Made by a program: the position numbers and the translations under genes. 64,000 nt of DNA from Halocatena marina (GTDB lineage: Archaea; Halobacteriota; Halobacteria; Halobacteriales; Haloarculaceae), in NCBI RefSeq assembly GCF_023276375.1, contig NZ_JALLPK010000001.1:3847391-3911390 (forward strand). Direction: 5' to 3'. Each line of letters starts with the position of its first letter. Positions within the stretch are counted from its first letter, which is position 1. This document shows, one piece after another, positions 2,720 to 58,212 of this stretch. Under the pieces are notes generated by a model. The model saw only the letters and a program-made list of their open reading frames with translations. It had not been told where the DNA came from and ran no database searches.

Positions 2720-2887
2720 TACTCCACACTGGAACGCTCGCACAATAGAACTGTCGTTGTTATCGCTGCTACTCAGCCCAACGCGAACGTGTGGCTGTGA
2801 GAGAGTAAGATCAGATAGCGTAGAGAAGAGCAAAGCAGGAAAGGAAAAGGGAAGGATACTATGAGGTGGCTGTGTCGAACGGAGTGT

Positions 2888-3403
2888 ATGAACCGTCGTC
2901 GTGTTGGGACGAGTCTCTACGCTGGATTTCTGTTCACAGTTCTCGGTCTCGTTGCGTGGGCAAGCGGGCAGCCGTTTATTTTTCCGAGTCTCGGGCCGTC
3001 TGCGTTCATTCTCTCGTTTCAACGCCGAGTTGAGCGAACTCGGCGGACGATCGTTGGAAGCCACGTCATCGGTGGCTGTGCTGGTCTCCTCGCGTACTCC
3101 TTACTCGCCACTGATGCTACGATTGTTGCGACATCTCCTGCATTCTCTGCAGACGGCCTCCGTCTCGCTGCAAGCGGTGTCGTATCGATTGTACTGACGA
3201 GCTGGGGAATGATTGCTACCCACACAAACCACGCACCGGCGTGTGCGACGACGCTCATCGTCTCTCTTGGATTGCTTTCGACGCCGGTTCAGGTCGCAAT
3301 CATTGTGATAAGCGTCATCGTCCTTGTTGAAGTCCACTCTGTCGTGCTGTCTCTGTTCAAATGGACGGTCGGTGACAGCCACCCTGTGTACCGCGACTCG
3401 TGA
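2888..3403 (+). CDS. HPP-family integral membrane protein
   Basis: 171 aa from the ATG at 2888, in good context with MNRRRVGTSLYAGFLF; an in-frame start at 2861 would add 9 residues. The HPP signature is visible as the segment QPFIFPSLGPSAFIL at about residues 29-43, followed by hydrophobic helices and the motif THTNHAPACATTLIVSLGLL. HPP proteins have four transmembrane helices, and some cyanobacterial and plastid members transport nitrite. A substrate here is not supported by context. It is divergent from the small membrane protein at 2567-2719. Confidence 0.85.
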   Translation: MNRRRVGTSLYAGFLFTVLGLVAWASGQPFIFPSLGPSAFILSFQRRVERTRRTIVGSHVIGGCAGLLAYSLLATDATIVATSPAFSADGLRLAASGVVSIVLTSWGMIATHTNHAPACATTLIVSLGLLSTPVQVAIIVISVIVLVEVHSVVLSLFKWTVGDSHPVYRDS

Positions 3404-3797: not shown

Positions 3798-4643
3798 GTG
3801 TCGATTCGCGGTGATACGCTTGACCGGCTCGTCATTCCAGATGAAACGACGGTCGAAGAACACGATCTCGTGACCGATGGAGACATCATCATCGGTGGGC
3901 AGAGTACGGTCGAGTTCGGGGTGCGCGGACGCAGCGTTATCGCCGGTGAGCGCACCGTATTCGGTGGTTCTATCGAGTCGACAGATGACTGTCGGCTCGA
4001 TATGTGGTGTGATGTTCACGGAAACGTTCTCGTGGGTGCAGACGCCTACATCGGAGAGCGGGCGCGCATCGGGGGCCAACTCGTTGTTTCCGGTGACCTC
4101 GATATCGGCGATGAAGTAGACATCGAAAAAGGCTTCGAGGCGAGTGGTTGGATCATTATCCGGAATCCGATGCCAACCATCGTCTTCCTGTTCCTGTATC
4201 TCTCGCATTTGTTGCGGCTCGGTGAGGAGGAAGCGGCTGCAGAGGTTGCAAACGAGTTCTTGGGCGAACAAGATGACGCACTCGTTATTCCTCGTGGCTC
4301 ACACGTGAGCGACGATATGTGGCGCGTCTCGACCCCGGGTGTTATCGGCAACGGCTGTCGGTTACACGGGAATATCAGAGCGGCATCGCTCACTGTCGGT
4401 GAGGACAACGACGTGTTCGGGAGCCTCAGAACGAAACGCTGTATCACGATCGGGAAAGGGACCCGTATTCACGGCGACGTAACCACACGGCACGGCACGG
4501 TCACCGTCGCCGAAGGCGCGGAGGTGCTCGGCGATATCTCCTGTGGTGATCTCGATCTGCACGATAGAGCGACCATTGACGGCGCGATCCGTGCGAGCGG
4601 CGAGATGTCGATTACGAACGATTCCATCCACGAAACCATGTAA
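3798..4643 (+). CDS. Bactofilin-like polymer-forming protein with a membrane-associated insert
   Basis: 281 aa from a GTG start. Residues 1-115 and about 170-275 are left-handed beta-helix-type repeats with regularly spaced Gly, Val and Ile (for example ADAYIGERARIGGQLVVSGD), as in polymer-forming cytoskeletal proteins (DUF583 and bactofilins). Between them, residues about 120-160 hold a hydrophobic stretch (PTIVFLFLYLSHLLRLGEEE) that may anchor the protein at the membrane. The likely role is a cytoplasmic scaffold near the envelope, inferred from family. The stop overlaps an alternative upstream start of the next gene, so the two may be co-transcribed. Confidence 0.75.
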   Translation: MSIRGDTLDRLVIPDETTVEEHDLVTDGDIIIGGQSTVEFGVRGRSVIAGERTVFGGSIESTDDCRLDMWCDVHGNVLVGADAYIGERARIGGQLVVSGDLDIGDEVDIEKGFEASGWIIIRNPMPTIVFLFLYLSHLLRLGEEEAAAEVANEFLGEQDDALVIPRGSHVSDDMWRVSTPGVIGNGCRLHGNIRAASLTVGEDNDVFGSLRTKRCITIGKGTRIHGDVTTRHGTVTVAEGAEVLGDISCGDLDLHDRATIDGAIRASGEMSITNDSIHETM

Positions 4644-4693
4644 TGGAGGTGTGGAATCGAAAGGCACTCTCCGACGCCGACCCTGTACGGTGT

Positions 4694-5887
4694 ATGGTTT
4701 CACTCTCCCTCTCGCTTGCCCTTGCCGGAAAGCCCAATGCCGGGAAGTCCACGTTCTTTCGTGCGGCGACGCTCGCAGATGTCGAAACCGGTAACTACCC
4801 ATTCACAACGATCGATCCGAATAGAGGTGTGAGTCACGTCCGCACGGAATGTCCTTGTCTTGCACGTGAAGAGCGCTGTGACAGCGACAACTGCCACGAC
4901 GGCATTCGCTTTGTTCCAGTCGAACTGCTCGATGTAGCGGGACTCGTCCCCGGTGCGCACGAGGGTCGAGGTCTCGGTAATCAGTTCCTCGACGCTCTCT
5001 CGAACGCCGATTGTGTCATCAACGTTGTCGACGCCAGTGGTGCGACGAATGCCGAGGGTGAACCGGTCCCAACTGATTCGTACGACCCCGTTCAGGACGT
5101 GGATTTCATCCAACAGGAGATGGACCTCTGGCTCGCGGGAATCGTTGATCGAAACTGGGAAACCGTCGAACGTCAGTCCCGATCGCCCAACTTCGACCTC
5201 GAAGACGCGCTGACAGAGCTACTGACCGGCTTCGGCGCGAGCGAGCCGAAAGTCGCATCAACGCTTCGTGCGGTCGACTATTCTGACGATCCACTCTCGT
5301 GGGACAGCGACGATCGTGAACGACTGGCGCGTGAGCTACGCGCCCGCACAAAGCCCATCATCGTCGCTGCCAACAAAGCAGACACCGCCTCAACAGAGAA
5401 CATCGAACGACTCCGCGAGACAGGAAGCCGCGTGACTCCGACCACAGCAGAGGGTGAGTTTGCTCTCCAACAGGCCATGAACGCGGGCGTCATCGAGTAC
5501 GATTCTGGCGATCCAGATTTCACCGTCGTCGGTGATCTTACGGACGAACAAGAACGCGGATTGGAACGGATTCGTACCGTGATGAGCGACTGGGGTGGAA
5601 CCGGCGTTCAGGAAACGTTGAACACGGCCGTCTACGATCTTCTCGATCATATCACCGCTTATCCTGTTCAAAACGAGACGAAGTGGACCGACGGGCAGGG
5701 AGTTGTTCTTCCTGATGCCTTCCTCCTCCCGCGTGGGTCGACCCCGAAGGATCTCGCATACGCCGTCCACTCCGATATTGGGGACGGCTACCTCCACGCG
5801 GTCGATGCACGTTCTGGACGACGCGTAAGCGATGAGTACGAACTTGAAGAAGGAGACGTGATCAAGATCGTTAGCACGGCTACGTGA
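4694..5887 (+). CDS. YchF/Obg-related GTP-binding protein with TGS domain
   Basis: 397 aa from the ATG at 4694; an in-frame ATG at 4643 would add a 17-residue tail unlike the family. G1 is GKPNAGKST (about residue 11), G3 is [19 protein letters not shown] and G4 is NKAD. Bacterial and eukaryotic YchF/Ola1 usually have a changed G4 and prefer ATP, whereas the archaeal branch retains NKxD, so GTP is the likely ligand. The C-terminus (from about residue 315) is a TGS domain ([16 protein letters not shown]). The cysteine-rich stretch after G2 ([15 protein letters not shown]) could bind zinc. The expected role is ribosome-associated, inferred from family. Confidence 0.88.
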
Positions 5888-6629
5888 CATCCTCACGCCC
5901 CTTGTATCCCGACACATAGTTCGTGGTGTGCTCGGTCGGCACAGCGTGAACCATGATTCGAGAGCTGATTAGTATGAGAGAAATGGAAAGACTCATCTTC
6001 TAATTATTCTGTTATATAACTGATTAAAAATATATGAAAAATACACGCGCTCTTGTTGAGCGTGTTTCTGTCAAAATCCGTCGACGATTCGGTGTTTGGT
6101 CAGCATTCGTCGAATTCTGCGCTGCAACTACTTTTGGTTATCATGAATAACTGTGCTATATCGTATCCTTAGAACAGAATGTAGCTCCGGTTCACGTGGA
6201 GACTAACATATGATGATTATTTTATATATTTGTGGGATTGATGTCATATTATGAACGTTCAAGTTATATATTATTGCCACAATTACGCCACTCTCCAACG
6301 AATACAGACGGACTGTGAAATGGTTTCTTCGAACAACCACTATCTGTTGTTCGAATACATATCAGATGTTGCAGACGAACCTGGGGGCACAAGACTCATG
6401 CCTATGTAGAATACAATTTAGTGTGGGCGTCGGTCACACAGCGACTATGTGACGTGACGGTTTCATCCAAACCCCCGGCGTCCGAACCGGTATAGTCCAA
6501 ACGTCACTGTCGCGCTCCATAGCCAATCAGCCCCCTTCTGGCCTATGGTATTTTTTCCGAACCCGACAGTAGTGTGTCGATAGTACTGTTAGACGAATGT
6601 CCATCGTGCCGTGTACTGTGCGTTGTCTG
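5888..6629. other. AT-rich non-coding gap, 742 bp
   Basis: This is one of the two longest gene-free stretches. It is strongly AT-rich from about 5990 to 6260, contains a perfect 10-bp inverted repeat at 6328-6355 and a GC-richer block at about 6420-6545. A 28-codon frame lies at 6434-6520 on the minus strand (starting MERDSDVWTIP) but has no supporting evidence. No tRNA, SRP RNA or RNase P RNA pattern was recognised. A small RNA in the 6420-6545 block cannot be excluded. Confidence 0.5.
6328..6355. repeat. Perfect inverted repeat, 10-bp arms
   Basis: TTCGAACAAC, an 8-base spacer, then GTTGTTCGAA. No T-run follows. It could be a regulator-binding site or an RNA hairpin. It is about 270 bp beyond the stop of the CaiB-family gene and 440 bp after the GTPase stop. 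Confidence 0.6.
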
Positions 6630-7787
6630 TCAGTTGATTGCGCCCGTTTCGCGCAGTTGTTCGAGTATTCGCTGATCGTAGCCGACCGATCGGAGGACAT
6701 CATCTGTGTGCTCGCCGTGTGCTGGAATCGATTCGTCTGGTTCGGGTGTATCGATCACGGCTGGAAATCCAATCCGTGGTGCCTGATCCACATCACGTCG
6801 TATTATTCCTCGTTCGTTGAACTGCGCCGCCTCGACTGCCTCTTTTGGTGTGTAAACGCCGTCGACGGTTGCGCCGTCGCCAACGTTTTCCCATTCTTCG
6901 CGCGTTCGCTCTCTGAATATCGATTCGAGTTCTTCTCTGAGCGCCTGCATCGTTGCCGGATCGGTGTTCATGTGCTCTGAGACGAGATCCTCGCGTTCTA
7001 CGGTCTCACAGAAAGCTTGCCAGAACTTTGGTTCGAGCGCGGCGAGTGTGACATACGCCCCGTCAGCAGTTTCGTACGTATCGTACCACGGAAAGTCGCC
7101 TGTAAGCGGCGTTGCGCCGGGTCGTGGGTTTTTACCGGCAAGCGCTTGGGGTGCGATTACTTGTGAGAACGACAGGGCAACATCCGTCATTGCCACATCG
7201 ATGTACTCACCGTCACTATTACCGAGTTCCCGCGAACAAAGCGCACCAACGATAGCGAACGCCGCGAACAATCCTCCAGCCATATCCGCTACTGGGTAGC
7301 CGGGGACCTGCGGTTTCGAAGACTCGTCCTCGCGGGTCATATCAAGCAGTCCTGCCCGTCCGACGTAGTTAAGATCGTGTCCTGCGCGTTCGGCGAGCGG
7401 ACCGCTTTGACCGTATCCCGACAGCGAACAGTAGACGATTGACGACTTGTGTTCACGGACGCTGTCGTAATCGATCCCAAGCCGTTCGGCGACACCTGGC
7501 CGGAAGCCTTCGAACACCACATCCGCATCGTCAAGCAGGCGATAGAACGCGTCCCGTCCGCCGTCCGTTTTGAGATCGAGCGCAACGCTTCGCTTGCCTC
7601 GGTTGACGCCGTCGAACACCGCTCCGACACCACTGTCGGTCACGGGCGGCATATAGCGCGCGTAATCACCGCTGTCGGTGTCCTCTATTTTGATCACGTC
7701 TGCGCCCGCATCGGCGAGTAGCTGTGTCGCATACGGTCCCGGAAGGAGGCGTGTGAGATCTAACACACGAACGCCGTCGAGTCGCAT
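6630..7787 (-). CDS. CaiB/BaiF-family protein, alpha-methylacyl-CoA racemase-like
   Basis: 385 aa, full length for the family. It starts MRLDGVRVLDLTRLLPGPYA, the typical N-terminus of class III CoA-transferases. His137-Asp138 in RAGHDLNYVG and Asp168 in YPVADMAGG match in kind and spacing the His/Asp pair of 2-methylacyl-CoA racemases. The GHDxNY motif also favours a racemase over a formyl- or carnitine-CoA transferase, where Asp168 would carry the acyl group. The likely role is epimerising branched acyl-CoA in fatty acid or isoprenoid breakdown. It is a single gene with large gaps on both sides, so the substrate is not fixed by context. Confidence 0.85.
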   Translation of the reverse strand: MRLDGVRVLDLTRLLPGPYATQLLADAGADVIKIEDTDSGDYARYMPPVTDSGVGAVFDGVNRGKRSVALDLKTDGGRDAFYRLLDDADVVFEGFRPGVAERLGIDYDSVREHKSSIVYCSLSGYGQSGPLAERAGHDLNYVGRAGLLDMTREDESSKPQVPGYPVADMAGGLFAAFAIVGALCSRELGNSDGEYIDVAMTDVALSFSQVIAPQALAGKNPRPGATPLTGDFPWYDTYETADGAYVTLAALEPKFWQAFCETVEREDLVSEHMNTDPATMQALREELESIFRERTREEWENVGDGATVDGVYTPKEAVEAAQFNERGIIRRDVDQAPRIGFPAVIDTPEPDESIPAHGEHTDDVLRSVGYDQRILEQLRETGAIN

Positions 7788-42576: not shown

Positions 42577-43203
42577 TTGTGTGAGTGGGTTCGTCTGATT
42601 GTCCAGTCAGTATCCGGTGCAAGAGAATTGAAAACAGCCCGCGACGGGGTGCCAACCCGCCATGGACCAACAGCTACGGGCGTTTTTTACGACGAACCCA
42701 GCCGTCACACCCGAGGGCAATCGTGGATGTGACGTCTTGCATGTGTACACCCGTGTGCTGGCACAACTTAGCAATTACGCCCGGTACTAATCCTGCCCCA
42801 ATCGGAGCAGATCAGCATACGCAACGAGATTTTATGCGATGAACGGCGACAGCTTCGGGCAGAGTAAACGAGAGAGTAACTCGCTATTCTAAAACGTATT
42901 CCATCTGTGATTACATCACGGTCTGTGGTGTTGGTTGTAATCTCTACGTGATGCATCTCTTCTATGCTGTGCCATCGCTCTTCTGTAGTGATCTCAAACT
43001 GATGGTTCACCGCTTTCCGAAGCACCACTACTCACAGTTGCCTCTGAGTGCGGTCTGGCTCCATGCGGATGCGATCTCTATCTAACTCTGGTAGATCTCC
43101 AAGAATGACTTGATGGTCTCACTAGCTCAGATTGCCTTCCAAAGCGACGAAGAGAACATAAGTCAGTGCTGATAAGTATTGTCGTTCTGTATCTGTCGTT
43201 GAT
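42577..43203. other. Intergenic region upstream of dapA, 627 bp
   Basis: It contains the lysine operon promoter region and the 5' flank of the DUF4013 gene. A 42-codon frame at 42662-42790 (+, starting MDQQLRAFFTTNPAVTPE) has no recognised homology. No RNA gene pattern was recognised. Confidence 0.45.
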
Positions 43204-43911
43204 ATGATTGAAGAGTCTCTGTCGTACCCGCTTGAAGATGAAACCCGACTCAATACGATCGGTCTTGGTGGTGTGATATATATTATAGTGAGTTTCATGT
43301 CTTTTTTCGCTGATATTTTTAGTGATCAGCTGATTGCGATTCCGCTGCTTCTCGTTCTCTCCATTGGTGGGTTTGCTCTCGCAGGCTACTCCGCTCGTGT
43401 GCTCCGAGTAACCGCGCGAGGAGAAGAGACGGTACCGAGATTCACTGACTGGCGAGGGTTGCTTATAGACGGCTTCAAACTGACTGTTGTCAATATTGCG
43501 TACCTGCTTCCCACCATTCTGACCTTCATCGTAGCGTTCGCCATCGGATCGAACGACGGAGGATCGACGACCGCCGTTGGTTACCTCAGTTTGGCTGCGT
43601 TCGCTATTGGACTCGTTGCGCTGTTTTTCACTCCTGTTGCCTGGACAAACGTTGCGCTCACAGATCGTCTCAGTGCGGCCTTCGAGTTCAGGACTATCGT
43701 CGACGCAGCGTTGACTGGTCAGTATCTTGTCGCCGTTGGACTCCTCGTTGTTCTCGGTGCTATCTTTCGACTCATCTCAGGATTTCTGGCCATCATCCTC
43801 GTTGGATTTTTCATCCTCTTCTACACGCAAGTCGTCCTTTCCTATCTCGTTGGAAGCAGCTGCGGATCGATTCTCGTCGAAGATCTAGACGAGAGTGTGG
43901 TTGCTGAGTGA
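43204..43911 (+). CDS. DUF4013-like integral membrane protein
   Basis: 235 aa with five or six hydrophobic helices. Family-like features are the start EESLSYPLEDETRLNTIGLG, GYSARVLRVTARGEETVPRF and FTDWRGLLIDGFKLTVVNI. DUF4013 proteins are common in haloarchaea and have no known function. Its relation to the surface-protein locus downstream, on the opposite strand, is uncertain. Confidence 0.82.
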   Translation: MIEESLSYPLEDETRLNTIGLGGVIYIIVSFMSFFADIFSDQLIAIPLLLVLSIGGFALAGYSARVLRVTARGEETVPRFTDWRGLLIDGFKLTVVNIAYLLPTILTFIVAFAIGSNDGGSTTAVGYLSLAAFAIGLVALFFTPVAWTNVALTDRLSAAFEFRTIVDAALTGQYLVAVGLLVVLGAIFRLISGFLAIILVGFFILFYTQVVLSYLVGSSCGSILVEDLDESVVAE

Positions 43912-44176
43912 GTCAGTAATTAGGACCGAGTCCCCTCCGTTGTTCGCAATCAGTACTTCGTGGAGTAGTGGGTGTTGTCTGTTGTTACCGATTCGATAGA
44001 TGCTAGTGGTATGGTCGACGGGGAAATACACACCCGTCATTACGATGAAGAGAGCTATCCTCTTGTTGTAGTCTCTAGACGTGTATTCGACTGACTGTCA
44101 TGGTGGCTATATGCCATTCGTCGCGCTTTCGATCGGCCATAATCCAGTCGCTTCTGAAAATCTCTGTTGTATCAGG

Positions 44177-44548
44177 CTAGGGTATGAGGCTGGAGAGTCG
44201 ATTTTCGATGTCTTGTTGGGTGATTGTACCAGGATGATATTTCTCTGGGAGAATTTTATTGGGAGTGAGTACTAGAGCTAGTAATAAGAAGAATGCAACA
44301 AGTGTTATTACGCCATCTTCGATCAGGGTTTTAATCACGATATGATAGATAAACACTCCTGCGACGAGCGTAGCAGCGAGTGAAAATGGTCCCAGTCCGC
44401 CGGAATGGCGATCGAATCCATCGCTGGGCTGAAAAGTGAGGAATGGCGCAACATCCAGTAGGAAGGGATGAATAATATAAATATACACGACTGCCATCAC
44501 CACATAAATTACGGCTAATTTGATGTATTTGCTGGGTTTTTCTTTCAT
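44177..44548 (-). CDS. Tandem membrane protein, copy 3 of 3 (putative immunity protein)
   Basis: 123 aa with three predicted membrane helices: about 9-30, 53-72 and 78-95. It shares with its two neighbours the start MKEKPxxYxKLA, the block HPFLLDVAPFL, a SGGxGPFSLAAT segment and the C-terminal LPEKYHPGTITQ. This copy is the most diverged in its N-terminal half (HPFLLDVAPFLTFQPSDGFD then RHSGGLG). A TATA-like AAATATAAA lies 23-32 bases before the ATG, so it may have its own leaderless promoter. No known family was recognised. Its position after a secreted toxin-like gene suggests an immunity role, which is inference. Confidence 0.7.
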   Translation of the reverse strand: MKEKPSKYIKLAVIYVVMAVVYIYIIHPFLLDVAPFLTFQPSDGFDRHSGGLGPFSLAATLVAGVFIYHIVIKTLIEDGVITLVAFFLLLALVLTPNKILPEKYHPGTITQQDIENRLSSLIP

Positions 44549-44570
44549 AAGTGGATCAATAGTGAATAGT

Positions 44571-44580
44571 TTTATATTTT
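44571..44580 (-). promoter_or_regulatory. TATA-like box of membrane-protein copy 3
   Basis: AAAATATAAA on the minus strand, centred about 27 bases before the ATG at 44546-44548. This is the spacing expected for a leaderless archaeal transcript. Confidence 0.45.
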
Positions 44581-44666
44581 AATAGGAATTGGATATCTGC
44601 CATTGTGTCCACAAAAGATGGTTTCAAGAGTTCATAAGGTGGTTGTTCTCAGTGTAATATTGTCGT

Positions 44667-45092
44667 CTATTTTTGCCTCGATATAATCTTACGGATGTAT
44701 GAAAACGACCGTTTGACAAGTCCTGGTTTCTCTTTGTACCGATCTTCAAGATCTTGGAGGTCATTCATGTTTTCCGGATGGAATCTCTCTGGGAGAAATA
44801 AATTCGGAATGAGTATGAGAATGAACATTCCAATGACCGCCAATAACGGTACGAAACCAACTTTAATCGTATATTCTATCACGACATAATAGAAAAATAT
44901 TCCGGCGAGGACTGTAGCGGCGAGTGAAAATGGTCCCAATCCGCCAGAACGGCGCTCGAATCCATCACTCGATTGGAAGGCGAGAAATGGCGCAACGTCC
45001 AGCAGGAAGGGATGAACGATATAGATATACAGTATTATCGTCACTACAACAATAGCAGCTAGCTTACCGTATTCTCTAGGTTTTTCCTTCAT
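44667..45092 (-). CDS. Tandem membrane protein, copy 2 of 3 (putative immunity protein)
   Basis: 141 aa. The N-terminal 75 residues are close to copy 1 (MKEKPREYGKLA, HPFLLDVAPFLAFQSSDG, RRSGGLGPFSLAATVLAG). After the third helix the sequence departs: LPERFHPENMNDLQDLEDRY and a basic 25-residue tail (VKRSFSYIRKIISRQK) replace the GTITQ end of copies 1 and 3. The conserved half with a diverging tail recalls immunity-protein sets that track variable toxins. Copy 1 starts 477 bp further upstream on the same strand. Function unknown. Confidence 0.7.
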   Translation of the reverse strand: MKEKPREYGKLAAIVVVTIILYIYIVHPFLLDVAPFLAFQSSDGFERRSGGLGPFSLAATVLAGIFFYYVVIEYTIKVGFVPLLAVIGMFILILIPNLFLPERFHPENMNDLQDLEDRYKEKPGLVKRSFSYIRKIISRQK

Positions 45093-45191
45093 GAATCGAT
45101 TATTGCGGTAGTGTTAATGTAGCGGTAGCTTATTTAGACTATTCTTCATACATTTAAACCAGGTAGATTCGATGACCGTTTAGAAAATTAA

Positions 45192-45569
45192 TTATATCCT
45201 AGGTATGAGCCTCGAAAGACGCTCTCGGATATCTCGTTGAGTAATGGTTCCTGGATGGTATTTCTCTGGGAGAAATCTATTGGGAATGAGTACCAGTACT
45301 GTCAACAAGATGGCTGCAAAAAGTGATAATATGCCAGCATCGACCGTGTATTCAATCACGATATAATAGAAAAATATGCCAATGAGGACTGTTGCGGCGA
45401 GAGAGAACGGTCCAAATCCGCCAGAACGACGCTCGAATCCATCACTTGGTTGAAAGGTGAGGAATGGCGCAACGTCCAGCAGGAAGGGATGAACGGTATA
45501 TATATACACGACTATCATTACTACAACAATAACAGCTAGTTTACCGTACTCTCTAGGTTTTTCCTTCAT
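45192..45569 (-). CDS. Tandem membrane protein, copy 1 of 3 (putative immunity protein)
   Basis: 125 aa, starting MKEKPREYGKLAVIVVVMIV. Three membrane helices lie at about 9-36, 53-75 and 79-96, with an extracytoplasmic or cytoplasmic loop SDGFERRSGGFGPFS between the first two. It begins 75 bp after the stop of the large secreted protein at 45645-47582, so it is the first downstream partner. The 20 or so bases around its start (TTTTTCCTTCATGAATCGATTA, plus-strand sense, given here in part) are shared with copy 2, showing tandem duplication of the gene with its leader. Confidence 0.72.
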   Translation of the reverse strand: MKEKPREYGKLAVIVVVMIVVYIYTVHPFLLDVAPFLTFQPSDGFERRSGGFGPFSLAATVLIGIFFYYIVIEYTVDAGILSLFAAILLTVLVLIPNRFLPEKYHPGTITQRDIRERLSRLIPRI

Positions 45570-45644
45570 GAATCGATTAATGGTTTCGTGTTCGTATGCG
45601 AGTGACTTGATCGGTTGCCTTCATGGCATCGGTTGTTATCATGG

Positions 45645-47582
45645 TTATACTTGGACCGTCTGACATGATCCTTCTGTTTTCCATTTCTCATTCACATCTG
45701 GTTGTCTCTGCCAATTACAGTAGTTATTTGCTAGAGTATAGAAATTACCACCAGTGGTGATCGTGTCTGCATTTACGGCAACCTTTCCTAGATTCTTCCC
45801 TGTATATACTATCTTAATGAACTTTGGTGTATATCCTCTCTCTTTCGCCTGCTTGACCCCCTCAAGATCGTTGCCGTTTTCGGCGTAGTATTTGATGTGC
45901 TCCAGTGGCATCTCGTCAGCAGCGAGATCTGCTGCCAGATCGACATCAGCGCCTTTCCGGCTGAGCATCTTGATATCGTCCGGCGTGGCCCCTTGTTTGG
46001 CGAGGGGGATAGCTGTCTCAGGATCGACGCCTTTGTTGACGATTGTTTGAATATTATCGGCGCTATATCCCTCTTTGACGAGGGGCTTTGCCTTCTTGAG
46101 GTCGACACCCGAATGGATGAGCTTCGTCATCTTGTTCCCCGTCAATCCTCGTCTGACCATACTATTCACCAGCTGTTCGTCGTACCCTTTGTTGACAATA
46201 TAGAGGTATTCATCGTTCGTTATTGTGCCAGAGCTGGGTGGACGCTTCGAGAGGATGTTTGCGGTTTGCTTAAGATCATCCTTCATAGCGTATTGGATGA
46301 CTTCGTCCATCGATTCACCCCGGTGTAGTAGTACAGACGCCGAGCCATCACTGACTATGTCCAATGCAACCCGCGTCTGCGATTGTGAGGCACTCTTCGA
46401 AAGGAACGTCCCTATTGTCTTGAGGACGGCGGGAGATTTGCTGAATCGAGATACCCAGTCCGAGGTGACCGAGGCCACTTTCGGTGCATCGCCAACACCA
46501 TACCCACCGAGACTCCCAACCAGACCAATTGCGTCGAGAAGAGCCTCCCCTGCGTCCCCCAAACTCTGTTTTTTCACAGCGCTCACCGAGTTCTGAGAGA
46601 AATCACGAGCATCTGCGAGGACACCGACGTACGGCGTCGACGCAAGGCCTAACATTCCCAGGAGATAGAACGGCGAATCCTTCTGGTTGACTTCGTGCAT
46701 TCCACCAGGCATTCCCACCTCGCCCAAAACGCCACCCAGAGCGAATGCCTCCGCTTTCTTGGGATTTTCATGTGCCCACGTGGCGATTCCTACTGATATT
46801 CCACCCGTAATAACCGCTGCGAGTTCCGGATGTTTCTTCAGGAAGTTGATGACGTTTACTATATCTTCATCGAATCTTCGGATATAATCTTGCGCTTCTT
46901 TCTGCTTGGCAGTTGTGGAATCTGTGGCTTTTTTCGTCGGATTCTCACCGTCGTCATTGGAGCTATCGGACGTCGTAGTACCAGTTCCACTCTTCTGACC
47001 AGTTTGTGAGGAGGGAGTCGGTTTCCTCTGATCCACACTGCCAACTTCACCTACAGCCGATCCAGAGATCTCGCTATCGGCGTGGATTTGCACCGATTTG
47101 ATCACCGAGTCGCCTTCGTGCTGGCGAGTATCGACAGTCAATCCGACGGTCACCGACTCACCTGGTTTGAGCGGTACGGCCTGCTGTTTTCCTTCGAGCG
47201 AGCGTCGGTTGTTGCCACTCTCAAAGGTCACAGCCTCACTCGAATCAGTCATCCACACTCCGAACGGCTGGGCCCCCTTATTTGTGATTGTGAATACATC
47301 TCTCACAACCGTCAACGACTCTTGGTTGACCCCTGTACCGCTGCTTTCACCCCCGAGCGTCCCGCCCAACGAGACGTGCAACTGCCCGTTGCGTTGGACG
47401 GCGTACTCCCCGTTCGAGCTGTTGGCGGGCTGGAGCGACAGATAGCTCGCACCGTCGCCCGCAACACGGACATTCGCATCCCGCTGGGCAGTGATATTCG
47501 TGAACGCACCAGTGGCGTAGATGGCACTGGTGATCAGACCGACGGCCATCAGCGCGATAGCTAAACGACGCAGCCGATTCAT
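45645..47582 (-). CDS. Large secreted/surface protein, toxin-like architecture
   Basis: 645 aa from the ATG at 47580-47582 (MNRLRRLAIALMAVGLITSA), the start of a clean signal peptide; the frame runs on to 47732 without similarity. Order of parts: signal peptide (1-25); TasA/DUF1102-like beta domain (about 25-180; AFTNITAQRDANVRVAGDG, VFTITNKGAQPFGVWMTDS); a Ser/Thr/Gly/Asn linker (about 180-230); hydrophobic Gly-rich helices (about 245-350, including STPYVGVLADARDFSQNSV and LLDAIGLVGSLGGYG) resembling pre-toxin segments; a helical region; then about ten 13-residue repeats (about 460-595); and a tail with two cysteines (NNYCNWQR and EGSCQT). I know no family spanning this whole layout. Three membrane-protein genes follow on the same strand. 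A secreted toxin or halocin-type effector with immunity genes is the leading hypothesis; a structural surface protein is the alternative. Confidence 0.75.
   Translation of the reverse strand: MNRLRRLAIALMAVGLITSAIYATGAFTNITAQRDANVRVAGDGASYLSLQPANSSNGEYAVQRNGQLHVSLGGTLGGESSGTGVNQESLTVVRDVFTITNKGAQPFGVWMTDSSEAVTFESGNNRRSLEGKQQAVPLKPGESVTVGLTVDTRQHEGDSVIKSVQIHADSEISGSAVGEVGSVDQRKPTPSSQTGQKSGTGTTTSDSSNDDGENPTKKATDSTTAKQKEAQDYIRRFDEDIVNVINFLKKHPELAAVITGGISVGIATWAHENPKKAEAFALGGVLGEVGMPGGMHEVNQKDSPFYLLGMLGLASTPYVGVLADARDFSQNSVSAVKKQSLGDAGEALLDAIGLVGSLGGYGVGDAPKVASVTSDWVSRFSKSPAVLKTIGTFLSKSASQSQTRVALDIVSDGSASVLLHRGESMDEVIQYAMKDDLKQTANILSKRPPSSGTITNDEYLYIVNKGYDEQLVNSMVRRGLTGNKMTKLIHSGVDLKKAKPLVKEGYSADNIQTIVNKGVDPETAIPLAKQGATPDDIKMLSRKGADVDLAADLAADEMPLEHIKYYAENGNDLEGVKQAKERGYTPKFIKIVYTGKNLGKVAVNADTITTGGNFYTLANNYCNWQRQPDVNEKWKTEGSCQTVQV
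45795..46200 (-). repeat. Protein-level 13-residue repeat array
   Basis: About ten degenerate units of the form x-[ST/D]-x-x-x-[IA]-x-x-[LIV]-x-x-x-G are visible, for example YSADNIQTIVNKG, VDPETAIPLAKQG, ATPDDIKMLSRKG and YTPKFIKIVYTG. The DNA copies are diverged, so the repeat is old or selected at protein level. Confidence 0.75.
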
Positions 47583-47997
47583 GAGGTTCGGAGAAGCGGT
47601 AGCGTGTACATACGGGCACGCAGGGATTTCCGTGAGTTCACTAATGAGACAACAAATACGATCTGGGAGGGATTCCTTCGTGGCATAAACATGATGCGAG
47701 TCATGGTGGCACCCATCGGCGAGGACCGCCACAGGTACTACCCCATCCCTCTCCCTGCACCCACTTTGTATTGGGGAGCTTGAAGAAGGTACAATTTAGA
47801 TTGTACCCTCTTCAAGATCAGCTTGAAACCATTTTATTATCATCTTAAACTCAGATCCATATTAAACTCTCATCATCGAATGTTCGTTGTTCCCTGAGTT
47901 GTGATATGATGGTCCTAAAGAAGTCGCTAGAAGCGTTCGCAGTGCGAGCATTCGAAGAATACCAAGGTCTATCCGGATGGACGGTCCAACTTCGCGT
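47583..47997. other. Divergent intergenic region between toxin-like gene and NYN gene
   Basis: 415 bp containing the long inverted repeat at 47779-47816. It must hold promoters for both divergent genes. No clear TATA box was seen immediately before the toxin-like start. No further gene was recognised. Confidence 0.5.
47779..47816. promoter_or_regulatory. Long inverted repeat, 17-bp arms, 4-base loop
   Basis: Left arm CTTGAAGAAGGTACAAT, loop TTAG, right arm ATTGTACCCTCTTCAAG; one mismatch (a G-T pair if folded as RNA). It sits about 200 bp from the toxin-like start and 180 bp from the NYN start. It could be an operator controlling both divergent genes or a very stable RNA hairpin. Confidence 0.55.
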
Positions 47998-57960: not shown

Positions 57961-58212
57961 ATGCGTTCACCGACGGGCTGCGTGGTTCAACCGATTCCGG
58001 TCACATTCCAACCTGCCATAGCAGGTGCCCGCTGGTGCCCGTCACGACCAACGAGATACACGGTATTCTGCTGTTGCGTACTTAGGGGCTTCGAAGCACC
58101 GTTGGCCGTGCGATCGGTTCGCGTGTCTATGTCGTTTCTAAAAAATATAATCCATGCTACAAAAATTTATTTTAGAGAACGTTTTAGCAGGTACAACGGT
58201 AAGAATACTACT

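Follow-up and report, generated by a model that had tools for sequence, protein, structure and literature searches.

A gene for a 645-amino-acid (aa) protein in the haloarchaeon Halocatena marina, together with the three small membrane-protein genes that follow it, is best read as a polymorphic toxin-immunity cassette (a probability of about 0.83 by our own estimate), in which a displayed, pilin-headed toxin would carry a swappable tail and the membrane proteins would provide immunity. The genes lie in a stretch of 64,000 nucleotides (contig NZ_JALLPK010000001.1, positions 3,847,391 to 3,911,390), hereafter called the window. The architecture of polymorphic toxins has been described by Zhang et al. 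(2012; PMC3482391), and the portion of that article available to us calls such systems rare in archaea; according to the accessible part of a later paper (PMC8416519; 2021), Makarova et al. (2019) had predicted polymorphic toxins in archaea, but these had not been characterized by experiment. The window proteins may lie within that predicted archaeal set. A first-pass annotation, made from the letters of the window, had described a large gene and three small membrane-protein open reading frames (ORFs) on the same strand, 75-120 base pairs (bp) apart, and ORF coordinates confirmed this layout: all four genes are co-directional, with gaps of 75, 99, and 118 bp leading to membrane genes 1, 2, and 3, respectively. 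The 645-aa ORF starts with ATG at 47582, while a GTG farther upstream would make 695 aa. As annotated, the three small proteins are paralogous and of membrane type, proteins 2 and 3 being 67 and 70% identical to the first, respectively, and each of the three having three hydrophobic segments, and the segments STPYVGVLADARDF and LLDAIGLVGSLGG cited in the annotation occur in the 645-aa protein. Its toxin-immunity interpretation gained support from sequence comparison, which revealed modularity of the large gene, linkage to and co-variation with the membrane genes, orphan cassettes, and presence or absence of the whole locus at its site.

A profile built from the window gene and two paralogs in its own genome detected the family in all seven Halocatena genomes searched. 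Two of these (G000 and G002; G and L numbers are our labels for genomes and loci) represent one species, and G002 was left out of genus counts. We took 24 genes with long C-terminal parts from six genomes and set aside carrier-only ORFs of ~170-275 aa; two of the 24 are broken, L058 terminating early in frame and L061 having its carrier in a separate ORF. Of the own-genome paralogs, L010 (665 aa) is 39% identical to the window protein over 584 columns; for L011 the value is 38% over 453 columns, with its final part unmatched. The sole locus from a scan of named genomes was in Halocatena pleomorpha (NZ_RRCH01000008.1; 625 aa), and the 13 pattern matches in viral contigs included no relative. 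In 16 of the 24 genes, the C-terminus consists of helical repeats, here termed the solenoid, and a short tail. This grouping into 16 solenoid genes and 8 others was first made by eye with the downstream genes in view, i.e., not blind; a model of the repeat unit, derived only from the window protein, subsequently recovered 15 of the 16 at E ≤0.02, compared with E ≥0.085 for the 8 others. The gene it missed, L056 (E 1.5), is nonetheless close to L066 of a neighboring species.

The membrane genes are linked to genes of the solenoid type. To build a membrane-family profile, 20 downstream ORFs were selected for their hydropathy and a loosely defined motif; a scan of the ORFs in 43 loci with this profile gave five new matches beyond its seeds (L066, L056, L067, L069, and L090). 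Results showed that a membrane-family gene lies within 3 kb of all 16 solenoid-tailed genes and of none of the 8 other family genes. It is co-directional with the toxin gene in four cases (window, L059, L073, and L065) and convergent in the other 12. Of 37 membrane-family matches genus-wide, 26 have a family gene no farther than 3 kb away, three others adjoin a toxin fragment in L095, and one adjoins an orphan tail in L098. Across the order, the membrane family was detected in 10 of 392 genomes, comprising the seven of Halocatena and three of a genus in another family (g26), and stands beside a toxin-family gene in 9 of the 10 (G002 repeating G000), which speaks against a chance arrangement. 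In g26, genomes G194 and G208 encode a 532-aa family protein followed after 53 and 60 bp, respectively, by a membrane gene (present twice in G194), and G177 has one membrane-family match (E 5.6e-7) and no toxin that we could see. The co-occurrence expected from the first-pass annotation therefore holds in the genus and recurs in two genomes of a different haloarchaeal family. Frequent occurrence of the large protein without membrane genes had been named as an argument against a toxin system; the carrier does occur in this way, but bearing another C-terminus.

The C-terminus is also matched to its neighbor. Among 15 genes, similarity between tails (the last 55 aa) correlated with similarity between adjacent membrane proteins (Pearson r 0.85, and still 0.85 as a partial r given the carrier), as against r 0.23 for carrier and membrane protein, and the best partners agreed for tail and membrane protein in 11 of the 15. 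When L126 and L127 were added (17 genes, 136 pairs), the tail correlated with the membrane protein at r 0.83, the solenoid at 0.77, and the carrier at 0.24; with 4 near-orthologous pairs removed, r was 0.73 for the tail and -0.15 for the carrier.

Near-identical carriers with swapped C-termini, a feature of polymorphic toxins, were sought in six carrier pairs of our own choosing. The sharpest break was between L055 and L068, from two species, in which identity was 82-100% in ten 40-column windows, then 52%, then 10-25%. The drop from carrier to end was less clean in L126/L127, L064/L075, and L062/L074, and the pairs L066/L056 and window/L059 had no identity break. Some of the exchanged ends resemble nucleases: a profile of ten nuclease-type ends matched PDB 7m5f_C, 'Toxin CdiA' (whole chain E 1.7e-6, best stretch 6.8e-4), and single ends matched PBECR1, PBECR2, or EndoU below cut-off. 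One sister toxin candidate, L011 (6040-7770, with a soluble downstream gene at 5546-6028), is encoded in the window's own genome and has such a CdiA-related, nuclease-like end. Relatives of this end and of the downstream 160-aa gene are found together in L130 (G160, another family) behind a different N-terminus (downstream proteins 36% identical, E 5e-15; pre-toxin region plus end E 1e-23), so end and neighbor travel as a pair there. The tail of the window protein itself had no CdiA or nuclease match in Pfam or PDB, where the window protein alone matched a pilin only. Variable C-termini with matched partner genes, which had been anticipated, are thus seen in the genome comparison.

Tails were also found apart from carriers. 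By tblastn, carrier-less copies beside their own membrane gene occur in L059 (one) and L069 (two), and in L098 a 60-aa orphan-tail ORF is flanked by two membrane genes. The latter, missed by tblastn with whole toxins, was found by a five-tail profile as the sole match in 1078 ORFs (E 4e-5). An ORF in L069 was first taken for a transposase, an assignment that was dropped since no Pfam family matched it. Tblastn at E 1e-3 found no tail remnants between the window's three membrane genes. The orphans bear on the question of which C-terminal part is active. The solenoid could itself be the effector or a receptor binder, with an inert tail and with membrane proteins as blocking partners, and its co-variation with the membrane protein (r 0.77) would agree with this. 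However, in the orphan ORFs of L059 (76 aa) and L098 (60 aa) a tail is retained while the solenoid is largely or wholly missing, and in the window the tail, with a G+C content of 0.40, is closer to the membrane genes (0.43) than to the solenoid (0.505); we therefore consider an active solenoid improbable and assign toxicity, provisionally, to the tail.

The N-terminal part of the window protein looks like an export and display module. A signal-type N-terminus with a beta domain, as first annotated, is consistent with a single N-terminal hydrophobic segment (residues 7-25 by hydropathy window) and with beta strands at 34-169 in a model of low overall confidence, and export is predicted from this segment and the pilin-like domain that it adjoins. 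NCBIfam models of TafE (residues 5-164, E 4.1e-10) and TafF (about residues 21-225, E 1.1e-8) matched far under their curated cut-offs, so that membership in the TafE fimbrial adapter family NF052522 was not reached (39.7 bits vs a cut-off of 155). PDB 9p0a_C, 'Pilin', matched residues 8-111 of the window protein alone (E 6.6e-4) and an 18-sequence family profile (E 1.8e-13). Similarity to a pilus protein along the whole length, which the first-pass annotation had set out as evidence against a toxin, was not found, the matches being limited to these N-terminal residues. Neither the toxin nor any of the three membrane proteins had a Pfam match above cut-off; for the membrane proteins, NCBIfam likewise gave none above cut-off, and PADLOC and PHROGs none at E 0.1. 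As a separate observation, the L010 paralog is near genes for TafE-like and TafC-like proteins, an archaeal signal peptidase I that also matches SipW, more weakly, and a DUF5305 protein; this neighborhood (L010, 3504-10429) is possibly a fiber locus.

Such features raise the prospect that the protein is simply an adhesive fiber tip, with the membrane proteins as anchor or assembly factors and with C-terminal variability reflecting antigenic variation or receptor choice. The pilin-like domain and the genes around L010 suit this explanation, and physical docking could also make the C-terminal part co-vary with a membrane protein. An assembly factor, however, should track the carrier, yet the carrier correlation is only 0.24 and 8 of 24 carriers have no membrane gene; tandem and solitary membrane genes and orphan tail cassettes are ill-suited to an anchor, and some sister ends are nuclease-like. 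We give an adhesive tip little credence and favor a toxin on a pilin-like carrier.

Between carrier and solenoid is a region (residues 269-440) common to carriers with different C-termini, which agrees with the earlier guess of a pre-toxin segment; the other side of that guess fared less well, as no Pfam pre-toxin model matched. The region also stands behind other N-termini in G058 and G059 and was detected in 22 of the 392 genomes of the order, with weaker matches in open frames 1000-1800 aa long that end, judged by eye, in nuclease-like sequence. Loci L130, L131, L132, L133, and L135, from other haloarchaeal genera, contain surface-type ORFs of ~1040-1460 aa sharing this region; several have nuclease-looking ends, some with a small gene directly after. 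Three of the 24 family genes (L071, L072, and L060) match in the carrier only and not in the pre-toxin region. These bear other C-termini (that of L071 weakly PBECR2-like) and are followed by several small genes.

An AlphaFold2 model of the window toxin, run with one relative, was readable only in the solenoid, where regular short helices at residues 456-594 reached a predicted local distance difference test score (pLDDT) of ~80; the linker and helical middle were below 50. Weak profile matches of the solenoid were to BurrH/dTALE. Foldseek against PDB, the check suggested at first pass, returned nothing at E ≤0.001, with Ig-like domains and some pilin domains heading the list at E ≥0.03. Beyond the solenoid, the final 65 aa hold exactly two cysteines, spaced 11-27 apart, in 14 of 17 tails (15 Halocatena genes, L058 excluded, together with L126 and L127). 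Five of these 14 proteins have one or two extra cysteines upstream, and five nuclease-type proteins contain no cysteine at all. A short, two-cysteine tail might also belong to a diffusible, halocin-type precursor, cleaved outside the cell and acting at a distance, with the carrier serving only for secretion; the active part of halocins H4 and C8 is a released C-terminal fragment, to judge from the available part of PMC12893001. The pilin-like head, the ~140-residue solenoid, and the presence of the same pre-toxin region in very long surface-type proteins point instead to display, and matches up to E 5 in Pfam and NCBIfam, libraries that we assume to contain halocin models, included no halocin family. 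A released tail is therefore unlikely in our view, and a displayed one is preferred.

Several observations weigh against a toxin-immunity cassette. For the same 15 genes, the Spearman coefficient of tail and partner was only 0.42, which, set beside the Pearson value, indicates that a few similar pairs carry much of the correlation. While 0 of 20000 permutations reached the observed tail-partner value, the similarity pairs are non-independent and this count is consequently not a strict probability. The solenoid co-varies with the partner too, as do residues 251-400 (r 0.72; tail partial r 0.67 given 251-400), so the matched unit may exceed the tail. None of 20 family members matched a Pfam pre-toxin family, although the described pre-toxin domain is not present in every polymorphic toxin. 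The tails of L067, L057, and L065 (3 of 17) have no cysteine in the last 65 aa, and 7 of the 37 membrane genes are solitary. Lastly, structure models were poor (pLDDT 51 for the toxin; 57 for four membrane proteins, too poor to read), and the Foldseek search was empty at its threshold.

Taking these points together, we propose that the large protein would be exported and displayed via its pilin-like domain, either built into or capping a TasA/Taf-type fiber, and that the pre-toxin region and solenoid would serve as a spacer projecting the ~50-residue C-terminal tail. The tail may be closed by one disulfide, as the two cysteines kept in most relatives suggest. This swappable tail would be the warhead, most likely acting on or in the cytoplasmic membrane of a neighboring related cell, a target that we favor because the partners are small integral membrane proteins. 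Membrane gene 1 would protect its owner, and genes 2 and 3 would be extra immunity genes retained against the tails of other strains.

The partner genes themselves appear to be mosaic. Identity between membrane genes 1 and 2 of the window is 87% up to residue 75 and 38% in the remainder, and gene 2 resembles the partner of L073, in another species, more in its C-half (52%) than its N-half (33%). The two L126 copies break alike (76%, then 37%), and the two L059 copies break in reverse (39%, then 66%). From these alignments we infer that halves have been exchanged, with the C-half the likelier specificity part. That the closest counterpart of gene 2's C-half is a partner gene of another species suggests that the array covers several toxins, which would be a reason to keep three copies. 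No sign of positive selection was seen in the window's three paralogs, the ratio of nonsynonymous to synonymous substitution rates being <1 in both halves by a crude measure. In a bolder and doubtful extension, toxin-tipped archaeal fibers would consist of a donor-strand, pilin-type subunit with an exchangeable, disulfide-closed peptide warhead directed at a neighbor's membrane, and immunity specificities would arise by shuffling of halves.

Base composition and gene content at the site are relevant to the origin of the cassette. G+C content of the tail or end was below that of the carrier in 21 of 21 genes (means 0.41 vs 0.60), and that of 17 partner genes was 0.38. The gap between dapA and the NYN gene is 313-323 bp in 5 of 5 other Halocatena species vs 5400 bp in the window, where it contains a DUF4013 gene, the toxin gene, and the three membrane genes (Table 1). 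The simplest reading is that the 5.4-kb insert was gained in the window genome, loss in five species being the alternative. Solitary membrane genes, orphan tail cassettes, low-G+C tails, and a closed site elsewhere fit the pattern of a polymorphic toxin system.

Table 1. Coordinates of the features in the window (strand "." where none applies).
Feature	Position	Strand	Basis or remark
645-aa secreted polymorphic toxin candidate, whole gene	45645..47582	-	ORF and family alignments
Signal-like segment and pilin-like beta domain (carrier module), residues 5-164	47091..47570	-	TafE, TafF, PDB 9p0a_C
Pre-toxin region, residues 269-440	46263..46778	-	Common to carriers with different C-termini
Helical solenoid, residues 456-594, 26-aa unit of two short helices	45801..46217	-	AlphaFold2 pLDDT ~80, unit model
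Presumed toxic tail, residues 596-645, Cys622 and Cys640, G+C 0.40	45648..45797	-	
Membrane immunity candidate 1, 125 aa, presumed cognate	45192..45569	-	
Membrane immunity candidate 2, 141 aa, mosaic	44667..45092	-	
Membrane immunity candidate 3, 123 aa	44177..44548	-	
5.4-kb dapA-to-NYN interval	42577..47976	.	313-323 bp in five other Halocatena species
DUF4013 membrane protein within the 5.4-kb interval	43204..43911	+	Pfam DUF4013, E 7.3e-28

By profile, DUF4013 was found only at the window locus (including re-fetched copies) and in L098, where DUF4013-type proteins (3935-4708 and 6095-6667) flank the orphan cassette. The short dapA-NYN spacer yields a similar translated run in window 42585-42842 and in L145 at 2728-3039 (two species), and this stretch matched no Rfam family at threshold. 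Elsewhere in the window, an eL15 ribosomal protein leader was detected at 57979-58025 (Rfam RF03144, 47.4 bits).

The family offers a compact test case, with one tail, one membrane protein, and a tractable host group, and Haloferax volcanii can serve as a host for testing toxin-immunity pairs of haloarchaea, as the part of the archaeal type VI secretion system (T6SS) work at our disposal indicates (PMC11566945). A partner family with mosaic halves would reveal how immunity to a membrane-directed peptide diversifies. If the pilin-like head does put the tail on a fiber, this would be a delivery route not named in the portions of the cited literature available to us, and a limited search of the literature on TafE, SipW, and DUF1102 in archaea turned up no toxin of the window type.

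Compared with known systems, the window protein resembles TafE and TafF in its N-terminal 160 residues, with a hydrophobic segment, the motif YATGAF, and a pilin-like domain, but it scores 39.7 rather than 155 bits and has no such match past about residue 225. We take TasA-type fibers to be a further counterpart of this domain. CdiA, a toxin of contact-dependent inhibition, shares the modular C-terminus with a partner gene, and the nuclease-type ends of sister genes are related to PDB 7m5f_C, whereas the window carrier matches pilin rather than CdiA and its tail has no nuclease match. Halocins H4 and C8 are likewise haloarchaeal and secreted, with an active C-terminal fragment (PMC12893001, as far as its accessible text goes), but the window system has no halocin family match, a display-type head, and separate membrane partner genes. 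The Halogeometricum borinquense T6SS pairs also consist of a haloarchaeal toxin and a downstream immunity gene, tested in Haloferax volcanii, but are delivered by a contractile system (PMC11566945, same portion), and the likeness drawn here is one of description. Polymorphic toxins, as described in the available sections of the literature cited above, differ from the window family in its pilin-like carrier head, its ~50-aa and mostly two-cysteine warhead, and its small membrane partner family, but are alike in the export domain, pre-toxin region, swappable C-terminus, adjacent immunity-type gene, orphan cassettes, and extra immunity genes.

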